Below are positions 2,601-7,705 of a stretch of DNA of 64,000 bases, piece after piece. Origin of the DNA: Leptolyngbyaceae cyanobacterium. Lineage in GTDB: Bacteria; Cyanobacteriota; Cyanobacteriia; Cyanobacteriales; Aerosakkonemataceae. The notes beneath the pieces were generated by a model. The model was not told the origin of the DNA. It made no database searches and saw only the letters and a list, made by a program, of their open reading frames with translations. Where the stretch lies: NCBI GenBank assembly GCA_036703985.1, contig DATNQN010000057.1, forward strand, positions 62,001 through 126,000, in the 5' to 3' direction. A program made the position numbers and the translations under genes. Positions within the stretch are counted from its first letter, which is position 1. Every line of letters starts with the position of its first letter.

Positions 2601-3932
2601 CTAATCATCAAAACTAAGAGCTTTTCCTCGTACATCAGTATGTAATTTACCTCTTTCATAAACAATTTTACCGCCTACCACAGTCACCACGGGCCATCCA
2701 GTTAAATTCCATCCCTCAAAAGGACTCCAACCGCATTTAGTTAATAATTCTTCTCGCAAAACCGGACGATAAGTATTTAAATCTACTAATACTAAATCCG
2801 CATCATAACCAGGTGCGATCGCGCCTTTTCTAGGAATCTTATAAGCTTTTGCCACAGCGGTAGACATCCAATTGGCAACTCGAGCAACCGAACACTTTCC
2901 TTGCATGGCTTGGGTTAACATAATTGGCAAAGATGTTTCTACTCCCGGCATTCCCGAAGGAGTATTCGGATAACCTTTGGCCTTTTCTTCTAAAGTGTGA
3001 GGTGCGTGATCGGTAGCGATAAAATCAATTACTCCATCTAATAGCGCTTGCCACAAAATTTCATTATCGCGATGCGATCGTAAAGGCGGATTCATTTGCG
3101 CTAAAGTGCCAATTTTTGCATAAGCATCCGTATTTAAAACTAAATGTTGCGGAGTCACTTCTGCCGTTACCCAACTAGGTTTATCCTGACGCAACAATTC
3201 TGCTTCTTCACCAGTAGACATATGCAAAATATGCAAGCGGCGCTGATATTTTTTAGACAACCGCAGCGCTAATTGAGTAGCATTTAAAGCCGCTTGATTA
3301 TCTTGAATTTGAGAATGAATAGCCGGATCTTCGATTCCGGCAAATTCTTGCCGCCGTTGATTAATCCTGTCCTGATCTTCTGCATGAACTGCGATTAATC
3401 TATCTCCCTTAGCAAATATAGCTTCCAACACATCTTCTCGATCGACTAACAACGACCCGTGCATCGATCCCATGAAAATTTTAATCCCAGGAGTAGGTTT
3501 AGCCTCTAGCAAGTCAGGCAGGTTTTCTGGCGTAGCGCCGATAAAAAAGCCATAATTAACTAAGGACTTATCAGCCGCTCGTCTCAACTTATCATCGAGA
3601 TTTGCTTGAGTTGTAGTCAGCGGACGAGTGTTGGGCATTTCCAAAAAGGAAGTCACCCCACCTTTAGCACAAGCACAACTGGCGGTAAATAAGTCTTCTT
3701 TGTATTCTAGTCCCGGTTCCCGAAAGTGTACCTGCGGGTCAATTACTCCGGGCAACAAAGTCAAACCAACTCCGTCAATTTCTCTATCTTCTGCGCGAAT
3801 CGGAGTATCTGATATGTTGGGCGCGACTTCCACAATTTCGCCACCGCAGATTTTGACATCTCCCAACAAGAATTCACCATTCGGTAAGAGAATGTTTGCA
3901 CGCCGGATAAACAGACAAGGAATAGAAGACAT
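2601..3932 (-). CDS. pyrC: Dihydroorotase (probable catalytic copy)
   Basis: Dihydroorotase interconverts carbamoyl-aspartate and dihydroorotate in de novo pyrimidine synthesis. The amidohydrolase signature is GVIDPQVHFREPGLEYKE, so the first His of the usual HxH metal pair is Gln; this Q variant is, from memory, also common in Bacteroidetes dihydroorotases. The other ligands look intact: Lys in GIKIFMGS (candidate carbamylated lysine), His in AVHAEDQ, His in HILHMST and Asp in FIATDHAPHTLEEK. The ATG at 3932 (443 residues) is chosen over an in-frame TTG three codons upstream. It is transcribed towards tsaE. A second family member lacking these ligands lies 1 kb away beyond lepB. Confidence 0.88.
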   Translation of the reverse strand: MSSIPCLFIRRANILLPNGEFLLGDVKICGGEIVEVAPNISDTPIRAEDREIDGVGLTLLPGVIDPQVHFREPGLEYKEDLFTASCACAKGGVTSFLEMPNTRPLTTTQANLDDKLRRAADKSLVNYGFFIGATPENLPDLLEAKPTPGIKIFMGSMHGSLLVDREDVLEAIFAKGDRLIAVHAEDQDRINQRRQEFAGIEDPAIHSQIQDNQAALNATQLALRLSKKYQRRLHILHMSTGEEAELLRQDKPSWVTAEVTPQHLVLNTDAYAKIGTLAQMNPPLRSHRDNEILWQALLDGVIDFIATDHAPHTLEEKAKGYPNTPSGMPGVETSLPIMLTQAMQGKCSVARVANWMSTAVAKAYKIPRKGAIAPGYDADLVLVDLNTYRPVLREELLTKCGWSPFEGWNLTGWPVVTVVGGKIVYERGKLHTDVRGKALSFDD

Positions 3933-4169
3933 GGTAATCAAAAAGAGTTGTGCTTAGTACTATTGTCTATCTTGACAATTTTAGAGATATATCTGTAATA
4001 AAGAATAATTCCTAAAACAATGTTAATTATTGCCAAGCCGATCGATCGCATAATCGATTCTAAAAGCTAGACATTAATTCTTATTGATAGAGTTTATGTC
4101 AATTTTTTTACTGTGTGTCAAACCAATCATTGACAAATTTGGTAATCTGTATTAAAGGTCAATTTCCGA

Positions 4170-4766
4170 ATGCCTATGACTCGCTTGCAGGATCAACCAC
4201 CTAATAAAAATCAGCAAAACGCATCTGAAAATTCCTGGTTAGAAGGACTGAAAACCATTGGTTTAAGTGTCGTTTTGGCGTTAGGGATTCGCACTTTTGT
4301 AGCGGAAGCTCGTTATATACCGTCCGGTTCTATGCTTCCCACCCTCCAGATTAACGATCGCTTAATCGTTGACAAGATCAGCTATCATTTCCAATCCCCT
4401 GGCAGAGGAGACATCGTAGTATTTTCACCTACCGATACTCTCAAGCAGCAAAACTTCAAAGACGCCTTCATCAAGCGGATCATCGGGATACCCGGGGACA
4501 AGGTAGAAGTAAAAGACGGAAAAGTTTACGTCAATAATCAACCCTTACCAGAAAATTATATAGAAGAAGCTCCAGATTATCAGTATGGGCCAGTAACCGT
4601 ACCGTCCGACTCGTATTTAGTATTAGGTGATAACCGCAATAATAGCTACGATAGCCATTACTGGGGCTTCGTGCCGCGCGATCGCATTATCGGTAAAGCG
4701 GTAGTTCGCTTCTGGCCCATCAACCGGATGGGAGAAATTACTCCCGAACCCGCTTATTCTAAGTGA
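4170..4766 (+). CDS. lepB: Signal peptidase I
   Basis: Type I signal peptidase removes Sec and Tat signal peptides on the outer face of the cytoplasmic or thylakoid membrane. A single N-terminal membrane segment (about 28-42) precedes the catalytic Ser54 in [11 protein letters not shown]; the general base is Lys102 in [11 protein letters not shown]; box E is [12 protein letters not shown]. The 198-residue length is normal for cyanobacteria. The start may be the ATG at 4170 or another two codons later (4176). It lies alone between two divergent or convergent dihydroorotase-family genes on the other strand, so it is probably monocistronic. Confidence 0.95.
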
Positions 4767-4896: not shown

Positions 4897-6183
4897 TCAC
4901 ATCACAACCCTACCAGTGATTTGTTGCCCCAACCAAGGAGTATTTACAGAAAGAGATTTCAAATTTTGCTTTTGTACCGTCCAGGTTAACTGGGGATCGA
5001 ACAGAGTAAATTCAGCAGGTTGACCAGGTGTTAGTGCGGCGGGAGTCTGTTTCAAACAAATAGCAGGTTGAGTACTTAACACTCGCCATAATTCCAAAGC
5101 AGACCATTCGCCAGTTGCCACTAAATTTTGCCATAGCAAAGGTAATGCTAGTTCTAAACCGATCGCACCTGGGGGAGTTTCTCCAAAAGCAACGGTTTTT
5201 TCTTCGTAACTGTAGGGAGTGTGGTCGATCGCGATCGCATCGAGTATCCCCTGCTGTACTCCCCGTTTCAACGCTTCTCGATCGGCAGGAGTCCCCAGAG
5301 GCGGAGACAAACGCAAACTGGGATCGTAACTGCTTACTGCTTCCGTATCCAGCAACAAGTGCATCCAAGTCGTACTGGCAGTAATCGGTAATCCCCGCAC
5401 CTTCGCTTCCCAAATTAATTGCACGCTGCGGGCAGTAGAAACTTTTAAAATATGAACGGGAGTGCCGATCGCTTCCACCACCTCTAACAAAGCAGCCAGA
5501 GCAGAAGTTTCCGCGATAGTAGGAATTCCCGGCAATCCAAACCGAATCGAATCAACGCCTTCTCGCACGAGCCCGTTACCAGCCAGATCGCTACGCTCTG
5601 GCCAAAGGGCCACGGGTTTTTCCAAAGGCTTCAGATATTCCAACGAACGGCGCAGCAAAGCCATATTTTGCAAAGGTTGACCGTCGGCAAAACCTACTAC
5701 TCCCGCTGCCGCTAATTCTGCCAACTCAGTCATTTGTTCCCCTTTTACCCCCTGAGTCAAAGCACCCCAAAAATAAAGGCGAGGTAATGGGGAAGCAAGC
5801 GATCGCTTATCCTTGACATCAGGAACTAAATTACCTGCCAACCCCTGCAACTGCGCCAAACCTGCGGAATTATCTACAGAAGGTTTAGTATCCGGTAAAA
5901 TCGCCACGCGGGTAAAGCCACCCGCCTGCGCTGCTTCCATCAAAGACGCTAAGGTTTCCCGTTCTTCAAAACCCGGTTCTCCGGAATGGCTGTATAAATC
6001 TACCAATCCAGGGCCTAAAATCAGCCCTCGGCAATCTCGCACCAATGTTTTAGCCGGATAATCAGATATTTCCGTTTCGATTGCTTTTATATAACCGTCT
6101 GCGATCGACACATCCGCAATCCGATCGGTTCCCGAAACCGGGTCAATTATTCTTACTTGTTGTAGCAGTTCGCTATTAGTCAT
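4897..6183 (-). CDS. Dihydroorotase-like protein, probably non-catalytic (PyrC' type)
   Basis: A 428-residue amidohydrolase-fold protein of the dihydroorotase family. The metal-site motif reads GLVDLYSHSGEPGFEE, so the first His is Tyr. The region that should carry the carbamylated Lys reads AAGVVGFADGQP and has none, and the second-metal His position reads VALWPERS. Late motifs survive (HILKVST, AIAIDHTPYSYEEK). Loss of three ligands implies it cannot bind the binuclear metal centre. Inactive dihydroorotase homologues of this kind are known to be structural partners of aspartate transcarbamoylase in other bacteria (PyrC'/PyrX); that role here is inference. Heptamer repeats begin directly at its start codon. 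Confidence 0.82.
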   Translation of the reverse strand: MTNSELLQQVRIIDPVSGTDRIADVSIADGYIKAIETEISDYPAKTLVRDCRGLILGPGLVDLYSHSGEPGFEERETLASLMEAAQAGGFTRVAILPDTKPSVDNSAGLAQLQGLAGNLVPDVKDKRSLASPLPRLYFWGALTQGVKGEQMTELAELAAAGVVGFADGQPLQNMALLRRSLEYLKPLEKPVALWPERSDLAGNGLVREGVDSIRFGLPGIPTIAETSALAALLEVVEAIGTPVHILKVSTARSVQLIWEAKVRGLPITASTTWMHLLLDTEAVSSYDPSLRLSPPLGTPADREALKRGVQQGILDAIAIDHTPYSYEEKTVAFGETPPGAIGLELALPLLWQNLVATGEWSALELWRVLSTQPAICLKQTPAALTPGQPAEFTLFDPQLTWTVQKQNLKSLSVNTPWLGQQITGRVVM

Positions 6184-6337
6184 TGGTTATTAGTCATTGG
6201 TCATTAGTCATCAGTCATTAGTCATCAGCCATTGGTCAAGATATCATCAGTTGCTGTTTATACAACTTAAAAATGACAAGTAACAAATGACAAATCATAA
6301 ATGACAAATGACAAATGACAAATGACAAATAACAAAT
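6184..6337. repeat. Heptamer-repeat inverted element, copy 1
   Basis: Left arm: about eight units of GTCATTA/GGTCATT and variants (6184-6238). Right arm: units of AATGACA (6271-6335), the reverse complement of the left. The centre contains a 24-base non-heptamer core (6245-6268) that recurs with two mismatches in the spacer after ndhH (53564-53587). This is a short tandem repeat type known in cyanobacteria. It fills the whole space between two minus-strand genes and abuts the start codon of the dihydroorotase-like gene, so it probably forms part of its untranslated leader. Confidence 0.85.
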
Positions 6338-7705
6338 TTACAACGCTCCTGCTGCGGTTTTATCCAAAACTCCGCCACCCAAGTGCGTTGTAACGTTCAT
6401 TGTTTGCAGCACTGGGTAGCCCTCTGCACCTTTAGGATAATCAATAACGGTAACGGCACAATTACCTTGTTTGAAATTCCAGAAATGGGCCGGCCCCAAA
6501 TTGAATAAATGGCAGAGAATCGCTTTATTGATCGCGTCGTGCGCTACCACCAACACGGTTTTCGGCTGTTTGCTATATTTAGCGACGATCGATCGCCAAG
6601 CCGGAATTGCTCGATCCCACACTTGCTGCAAATTTTCCCCTTCCGGCATTTGCACCATTTCCGGCGATTCTTGCCACAATTTGAGCAAACCGGGATAATC
6701 TTGTTCGATTTCCGGTTCAAACTTTCCTTCCCAAAGTCCGTGACTGATTTCCGCCAAATCCGGCAGCAATTCTAACTCAACGTCAGAATGCGGCTCCAGA
6801 ATAATTTGGGCAGTTTCTTTCGGACGCAACATCGGACTGGTCACTGCAGAATCAATTGCCACATCTTTGAGAAACTCAGACGCCGCTCTAGATTGTGCTT
6901 TTCCATTTTCATTCAAAGGTACGTCAATTTGCCCTTGAAACTTTTTCTGACGGTTCCACTCAGTTTCCCCGTGACGCACCAACAAGAAACGCGGGCCCTG
7001 ATGACCGGGACGAGGTTTCGGCAACGGCTCTCCCAAATGAGATATTAAATTCATCGACTCCATTTGGACAGATGCCTCTCCCATTTTCCCTTCCGAAAGA
7101 GGCGCATCCAGAGTCGGAAAGTTCAGTACGCTCACCCCGCAATTCGATTGTTGAATCGAGTGGTAAAAAGCAGGCGGAATTCCCAACGCCGTACAAATCA
7201 AAGCACGACCGATCCCGTTATGACCGACTACTAGAATCGTTTTTCCATCGTGGTGGGGTAAAACTTCCTGCCAAAACTGCTTCGCTTGCTCGAACAGCGA
7301 TAACACCGGAAAAAATTCCTTAGTTCCCTCCGCAGTTTCCACCGGCATTTTCAGTTCGTGGGGACGTTCCTTCCACAACTTATAATCTTCCGGAAATTTC
7401 TCTTTTACCTCATCTTTGTGCAATCTTTGCCACAAAGGTAAATCAATTTCCATCAAATTAGGCGCTAATCCTAATTTGGGAGGATTGGCTAAACAAGATT
7501 GAATGATTTCGGCAGTTTCTTTCGCTCTTTGCAGAGGACTGCTGTAAATAGCATCAAATGTAAGACCAGAAATCGCAGCAGCCACTTGTCTAGCGCTAGC
7601 ACGACCTGCTTCGGTTAAAACAGACTCGTCAATACGACCTTGGATGCGCTGCTGTTGATTGAAAGTACTTTGTCCGTGACGGACAACGATCGCGCGGATT
7701 GACAG
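6338..7705 (-). CDS. Tandem-domain histidine phosphatase (phosphoglycerate-mutase-like)
   Basis: Two complete histidine-phosphatase domains in one chain. The second has LVRHGETEWNRQKKFQGQ with VVAHDAINKAIL; the first has VVRHGQSTFNQQQRIQGR with VVGHNGIGRALI. The first RHG motif lies upstream of the first GTG (7585) in the same open frame, so the gene must start earlier. A GGAGG sits eight bases before a CTG at 7705 that opens LSIRAIVVRHGQ, and no ATG, GTG or TTG in frame was found near it; CTG, or another rare start slightly upstream, is inferred. The product would be about 455 residues. Double-domain enzymes of this class occur in cyanobacteria; the substrate is unknown (sugar phosphates or phosphoserine are possible). 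Confidence 0.8.
   Translation of the reverse strand: MSIRAIVVRHGQSTFNQQQRIQGRIDESVLTEAGRASARQVAAAISGLTFDAIYSSPLQRAKETAEIIQSCLANPPKLGLAPNLMEIDLPLWQRLHKDEVKEKFPEDYKLWKERPHELKMPVETAEGTKEFFPVLSLFEQAKQFWQEVLPHHDGKTILVVGHNGIGRALICTALGIPPAFYHSIQQSNCGVSVLNFPTLDAPLSEGKMGEASVQMESMNLISHLGEPLPKPRPGHQGPRFLLVRHGETEWNRQKKFQGQIDVPLNENGKAQSRAASEFLKDVAIDSAVTSPMLRPKETAQIILEPHSDVELELLPDLAEISHGLWEGKFEPEIEQDYPGLLKLWQESPEMVQMPEGENLQQVWDRAIPAWRSIVAKYSKQPKTVLVVAHDAINKAILCHLFNLGPAHFWNFKQGNCAVTVIDYPKGAEGYPVLQTMNVTTHLGGGVLDKTAAGAL

Follow-up and report, generated by a model that had tools for sequence, protein, structure and literature searches.

A class-wide cyanobacterial family of probable pseudo-dihydroorotases resembling PyrC' and PyrX

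The 64,000-nt window analyzed here, from a cyanobacterial genome of 7.68 Mb, encodes a dihydroorotase homologue (P0001, hereafter X) whose active site has been extensively replaced. By analogy with described proteins, X is probably a pseudoenzyme that belongs to a class-wide cyanobacterial family and works like PyrC' of Pseudomonas and PyrX of S. meliloti. The direct basis for this proposal is homology, residue loss, predicted fold, purifying selection, the presence of a catalytic-type enzyme in most genomes and loss of the gene in some small genomes; the absence of X activity, the order of events and PyrB (aspartate transcarbamoylase) as the partner are what we infer. Judging by its residues, X is very likely not a normal dihydroorotase, and the analogy leads us to favour, with some reserve, a role as structural partner of PyrB.

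An intact gene with a replaced active site

X scores 662.6 bits against the NCBIfam equivalog family NF005614/PRK07369 'dihydroorotase' (cut-off 456) and is a full-score member of it, although the family name promises an activity for which the sequence gives no support. The closest named relative in our orthologue search, from which very near genomes may have been omitted, was that of Argonema antarcticum (80% identical). An AlphaFold2 model, predicted from a 74-row alignment that lacked Met1 of the window protein, is confident over its full length (pLDDT 96.5). With this model, Foldseek ranked first and second the Aquifex dihydroorotase chains 3d6n_A and 4bjh_A, both from the complex with aspartate transcarbamoylase (ATCase). 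VIA-align 2 left six type-I dihydroorotases (Thermus, Aquifex complex, Bacillus, Staphylococcus) tied at Z 53.5-54.6, with the Aquifex aeolicus chains at 54.3-54.4 (32% identity) level with those of Thermus and Bacillus, and the solved chains that aligned best by sequence were Bacillus and Aquifex dihydroorotases. The dN/dS values of X were 0.076, 0.069, 0.089 and 0.105 against loci L003, L004, L006 and L007, respectively, the four comparisons that were computable (dS was saturated for four other loci), and neighbouring genes gave similar values. The X gene is real, intact and under purifying selection. The gap between X and the upstream histidine phosphatase gene gpm (6184-6337) consists of short tandem repeats, variants of TTTGTCA and TGACTAA. 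As the ATG of X lies inside this array, its first residues, MTN, are repeat-derived and its true start is uncertain.

Table 1. Features of the window that bear on X, with residue counts among X orthologues.
Feature	Position	Strand	Remarks
PRK07575 catalytic-type dihydroorotase paralogue (P0002)	2601..3941	-	801 bits, cut-off 529
lepB-like signal peptidase, between P0002 and X	4170..4766	+	Pfam Peptidase_S26; part of lepB-X-gpm block; present in 32/80 named loci and in two f26 genomes
X (P0001), predicted pseudo-dihydroorotase	4897..6183	-	428 aa open frame; NF005614/PRK07369
Asp320-His321, kept (Aquifex Asp305 and next His)	5221..5226	-	each 170/175
Lys247 at Aquifex His232 position (beta site)	5443..5445	-	Arg in 172/175
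Trp194 at Aquifex His180 position (beta site)	5602..5604	-	Trp 120/175, His 0/175
Asp167, kept (Aquifex Asp153; Aquifex has no Lys here)	5683..5685	-	169/175
Gly68 at HxR arginine position	5980..5982	-	Gly in 157/175; Arg in 11/11 relatives
His66, kept (Aquifex His63)	5986..5988	-	His in 144/175
Tyr64 at Aquifex His61 position (alpha-site zinc ligand)	5992..5994	-	Tyr in 171/175
gpm, two-domain histidine phosphatase, upstream of X	6338..7705	-	Pfam His_Phos_1, two stretches

The HxR Arg and MPNT Asn of type-I dihydroorotases, which we take to be substrate-binding residues, are replaced in X by Gly68 and Asp98. For the metal site, the Aquifex study names His61, His63 and Asp153 as zinc ligands with Asp305 next closest, assigns His180 and His232 to a second site whose mutation changes activity little (the H180A/H232A double mutant is active), and gives Asp rather than Lys as the bridging residue in both the Aquifex and S. 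aureus enzymes (PMC3880350). Alignment with the Aquifex enzyme, a check proposed with the original prediction, showed that three of these six positions are lost in X (H61, H180, H232) and three are kept (H63, D153, D305). At the alpha site, Tyr64 takes the place of His61 while the counterparts of His63, Asp153 and Asp305 are present; at the beta site, which is dispensable in Aquifex according to the same study, both His have given way to Trp194 and Lys247. In contrast to what is expected of X, the Aquifex enzyme is reported to be active in its complex, with His61, His63, Asp153 and a zinc.

The original prediction had described a protein without metal ligands, which was too strong since half of the ligand positions are kept. 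It had correctly read Tyr at the first HxH His and the loss of the HxED/HCED-type His (Trp194). Its reliance on a missing carbamylated Lys was misplaced: because Asp, not Lys, bridges in the Aquifex and S. aureus enzymes, the absence of Lys is uninformative for this subfamily, and the Asp is present as Asp167. It had overlooked Lys247 at the H232 position as well as Gly68 and Asp98.

These replacements were counted in 175 non-identical cyanobacterial X sequences outside a small-genome family (f26; see below), with the window copy included, identical sequences merged and one sequence shorter than 330 aa (C_L005) left out. The MPNT Asn position holds Asp in 126 of the 175, and the window copy is the only one with Lys at the H232 position. 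Merging at 99% identity gave similar proportions (Tyr64 in 170/174, Arg at the H232 position in 171/174). The 11 homologues that we compared from the phylum's other classes, as assigned by the kinship column of our genome table, have His61, His63, the HxR Arg, the MPNT Asn, His180, His232 and Asp305 in 11/11 each and Asp153 in 9/11. The pattern in f26 differs from that of other X sequences: among 30 sequences, the H61 position is His in 30, the H63 position is His in one and the D305 position is Asp in none. Ligand and substrate replacement in X is a family-wide trait and not a matter of chance.

Mean entropy over 11 ligand and substrate columns was 0.88 bits in X and 1.47 in f26 versus 0.08 in the ligand-complete relatives, while the means over all columns were 1.39, 1.52 and 0.94 bits, respectively (sets thinned at 85% identity: 116 of 175 X and 26 of 30 f26 sequences; 11 ligand-complete sequences). 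Constraint at these columns is relaxed in X relative to its ligand-complete relatives. At the same time, fixed changes in the sequences (Tyr64, Arg247, Trp273 and Gly297) suggest that the pocket has been rebuilt and not simply eroded.

Distribution of X and of a separate catalytic-type enzyme

Across 386 sampled genomes of the phylum, X scored over the cut-off in 128. Outside f26, each of the 129 sampled genomes of the class carried it, the copy in G066 being truncated and below the cut-off. We infer, on kinship among other grounds, that f26 comprises Prochlorococcus and marine Synechococcus. X matches occur in 41 of its 57 genomes, every one below the cut-off, and the other 16 gave none, even with a profile built from 14 f26 sequences; this profile found X in G217 and G137, which are among its own rows and so make a weak positive control. 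Four of the 16 X-less sites were inspected. Only 50-70 bp separate lepB from gpm in G163, G358 and G261. In G366, a short remnant with matches to both ends of X sits between these two genes (L427:6355-6515), while G137, from the same genus, keeps the whole gene.

The absence of X from these 16 genomes, the remnant in G366 and the truncated match in G066 are what a decaying, functionless relic would leave, a reading that we consider hardly credible given the strong conservation outside f26 (129/129 genomes, 128 over the cut-off), dN/dS of 0.07-0.11 and a confident full-length fold.

The second family member that the original prediction had placed about 1 kb away is P0002, which lies 955 bp from X and carries the other dihydroorotase motifs. 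In its PRK07575 group, the first HxH His is Gln in 37 of 37 sequences (two of them more distant relatives), and 2gwn, a solved P. gingivalis protein, has Gln there too. A missing first His was consequently rejected as a sign of inactivity.

PRK07575 scored over its cut-off in 104 of the 128 genomes with X over the cut-off, and 22 of the remaining 24 have the E. coli-type enzyme TIGR00856, which is also present in 57 of 57 f26 genomes. A separate catalytic-type enzyme, intact by score, is found in 125 of the 128, a count in which PRK07575 matches with single-stop flags (G306, G111, G147 and G011) are included as intact. As X is retained with either catalytic enzyme, it is not the dedicated partner of one or the other. 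In G197, G251 and G185, PRK07575 is broken and X scores intact. G197 and G251 have TIGR00856, on a 58.9-kb contig, perhaps a plasmid, in the case of G251, and replacement of the catalytic enzyme looks to be under way in both. G185, whose PRK07575 copy is interrupted by three stops and a frame break, is without TIGR00856. Neither enzyme was found in G131 and G245, where a TIGR00857 search matched X only. The listed completeness of these two genomes is 99%, and G245 consists of two contigs. X in G131, G245 and G185 has the same altered site as the rest of the family. Unless they reflect assembly gaps, these three genomes without an intact catalytic enzyme speak against the simple story.

The pseudoenzyme with a non-catalytic task that had been predicted fits these results well, in view of the residue replacement, the entropy, the low dN/dS and the near-universal company of a catalytic-type enzyme.

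Aspartate transcarbamoylase as a candidate partner

Papers on Pseudomonas describe PyrC' of P. aeruginosa and P. putida (pDHO of the class A2 ATCase) as having, like X, lost catalytic residues and as having a catalytic dihydroorotase alongside (PMC7053772, PMC2770081); without pDHO, the P. aeruginosa ATCase chain is reported there to be monomeric and inactive (PMC7053772). In S. meliloti, disruption of the pyrB-adjacent pyrX is reported to cause pyrimidine auxotrophy, and the authors propose that PyrX is inactive (PMC5929573). X likewise is a type-I dihydroorotase homologue with lost catalytic residues, accompanied by a separate catalytic enzyme in the window and in most sampled genomes. Unlike Pseudomonas PyrC', it was not found near pyrB, a placement that is typical of these proteins though not defining. 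With S. meliloti PyrX (smc01361; PRK09059) X shares the replacement of the HxR Arg by Gly and of the MPNT Asn by Asp, and an FTDDG-type motif one residue shorter. The Ser in KLSPP of PyrX is also present in the window X, but in only 6 of 175 X sequences; moreover, PyrX lacks both HxH His whereas X keeps the second, and its gene overlaps pyrB, unlike that of X. The titles and abstract openings that we searched named no cyanobacterial pseudo-dihydroorotase, and we do not claim its absence from print.

Homology to PyrC' and PyrX and the pyrB linkage of relatives make the suggested link to aspartate transcarbamoylase plausible. pyrB was within about 1 kb upstream of homologous dihydroorotases in 10 of 10 outgroup records, hand-picked among 40 listed of 944 matches and including two that already showed pyrB when picked, and, in the phylum's other classes, directly upstream of a ligand-complete dihydroorotase in 4 of the 11 loci. 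Against the link, pyrB was found beside X in none of 214 scanned loci of the class (175 with at least 1.4 kb on both sides), the window genome's pyrB being on a different contig from X; PyrB is present in the 16 X-less f26 genomes; and rate covariation gave no support. With OTCase, hisS and pyrD as controls, the partial rho between X and PyrB was 0.18 (p 0.2; 29 genomes, 55 branches), not significant, and the correlations of PyrB with hisS (0.61) and pyrD (0.56) were higher; G019, which has a weak hisS match (383 bits), was for that reason left out of this test. A rate link seen with OTCase as sole control (partial rho 0.83; 37 genomes, 71 branches) was rejected, as it is gone with more controls. 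Without f26, the same single control gave 0.48 for X and PyrB, no higher than the 0.52 for X and OTCase.

Phylogenies (rows chosen partly by hand) grouped X with alphaproteobacterial PyrX and a long-branched, pyrB-linked Acinetobacter homologue at 98/92 (55 rows), and with alphaproteobacterial PyrX at 93/89 after the active-site windows, Acinetobacter and f26 were removed (31 rows). AU tests did not reject an alternative in which X arose next to the ligand-complete enzymes of its phylum (p 0.106 and 0.244), and the grouping and the common descent that it may reflect are suggestive only, not decisive. In a PyrB tree (45 rows, also partly hand-chosen) in which long branches meet, cyanobacterial PyrB stood apart from that of the phylum's other classes, with a joint grouping not rejected (p 0.261). 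The solved chains that matched PyrB best were 2at2 and 3r7d, presumably Bacillus chains, followed by 6pnz and, after it, by 4bjh_B and 3d6n_B from the Aquifex complex, an order that does not separate class A from class C ATCase.

Other readings and implications

X may instead be a pseudoenzyme with another partner or task, such as the upstream histidine phosphatase, or a metabolite sensor or scaffold outside pyrimidine synthesis, a reading that we consider unlikely. It draws on gpm being a more constant neighbour of X than pyrB: of 157 X loci with enough flanking sequence, 114 have gpm no more than 600 bp upstream in the same orientation, as do 30 of 30 f26 loci. The conserved replacements Tyr64, Arg247, Trp273 and Gly297, which suggest a rebuilt and kept pocket, and the lack of specific rate covariation between X and PyrB also favour it. 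On the other hand, gpm was not found in 32 of the 157 loci and was further away in 11. In addition, the window and two f26 genomes have the entire lepB-X-gpm-cpbp block in common, and gpm stays in all four X-less genomes examined. To our knowledge, moreover, the known bacterial pseudo-dihydroorotases all act with PyrB.

As to gpm itself, the frame from the listed GTG at 7585 is without the N-terminal RHG motif, which is found upstream in the same frame. The ORF listing offered no ATG, GTG or TTG for this upstream stretch. The reading frame suggests that the gene probably starts upstream of 7585, and a CTG near 7705, preceded by GGAGG, is a candidate start. L003, L004 and L006 have an apparent in-frame gpm GTG a few codons upstream of the position of this CTG.

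It is improbable, from the residues present, that X works as an amidohydrolase through a remodelled single-metal centre made of Tyr64, His66, Asp167 and Asp320, whether as a weak dihydroorotase or on some other substrate. In favour of activity, only one of the four alpha-site residues has changed, and Tyr is able to ligate metals. Activity is reported both for the Aquifex double mutant (PMC3880350) and for a PyrC paralogue of Pseudomonas that is regulated by Zur and is said to be without zinc residues (PMC2770081). The three genomes without another intact dihydroorotase also fit an active X, although draft assembly may explain the missing gene, the replacement in G251 being on its 58.9-kb contig. 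Against activity, His66 is replaced in 31 of 175 orthologues, f26 sequences have lost the counterparts of His63 (in 29 of 30) and Asp305 (in all 30) despite His at H61, Arg or Lys occupies a former beta-site His position, and the HxR Arg and MPNT Asn, presumed to bind substrate, are lost in most X. A repurposed catalyst, in which Tyr64-His66-Asp167-Asp320 and Arg/Lys247 would form a new single-metal or metal-free site and X would be the sole dihydroorotase-family protein for the step in G131, G245 and G185, seems very improbable.

We return to X as a structural partner of PyrB, for which a course of events can be proposed. Its ancestor was probably a pyrB-linked type-I dihydroorotase that assembled with aspartate transcarbamoylase. 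Another dihydroorotase, PRK07575 or, in other lineages, TIGR00856, would then have taken over catalysis, after which X could have lost its zinc and substrate residues with its fold retained. The most likely reason for keeping the fold is that dimers of X still bridge PyrB trimers and stabilise them.

As X is most likely a structural partner with a catalytic centre that is probably dead, the label 'dihydroorotase' is probably misleading. If this is true, a protein of nearly all sampled cyanobacteria is misnamed, and models that count two dihydroorotases are wrong. Cyanobacterial aspartate transcarbamoylase would then be an assembly of PyrB and a pseudoenzyme, and genomes that have PyrB and have shed X would be natural tests of how an enzyme gains independence from its pseudoenzyme partner.
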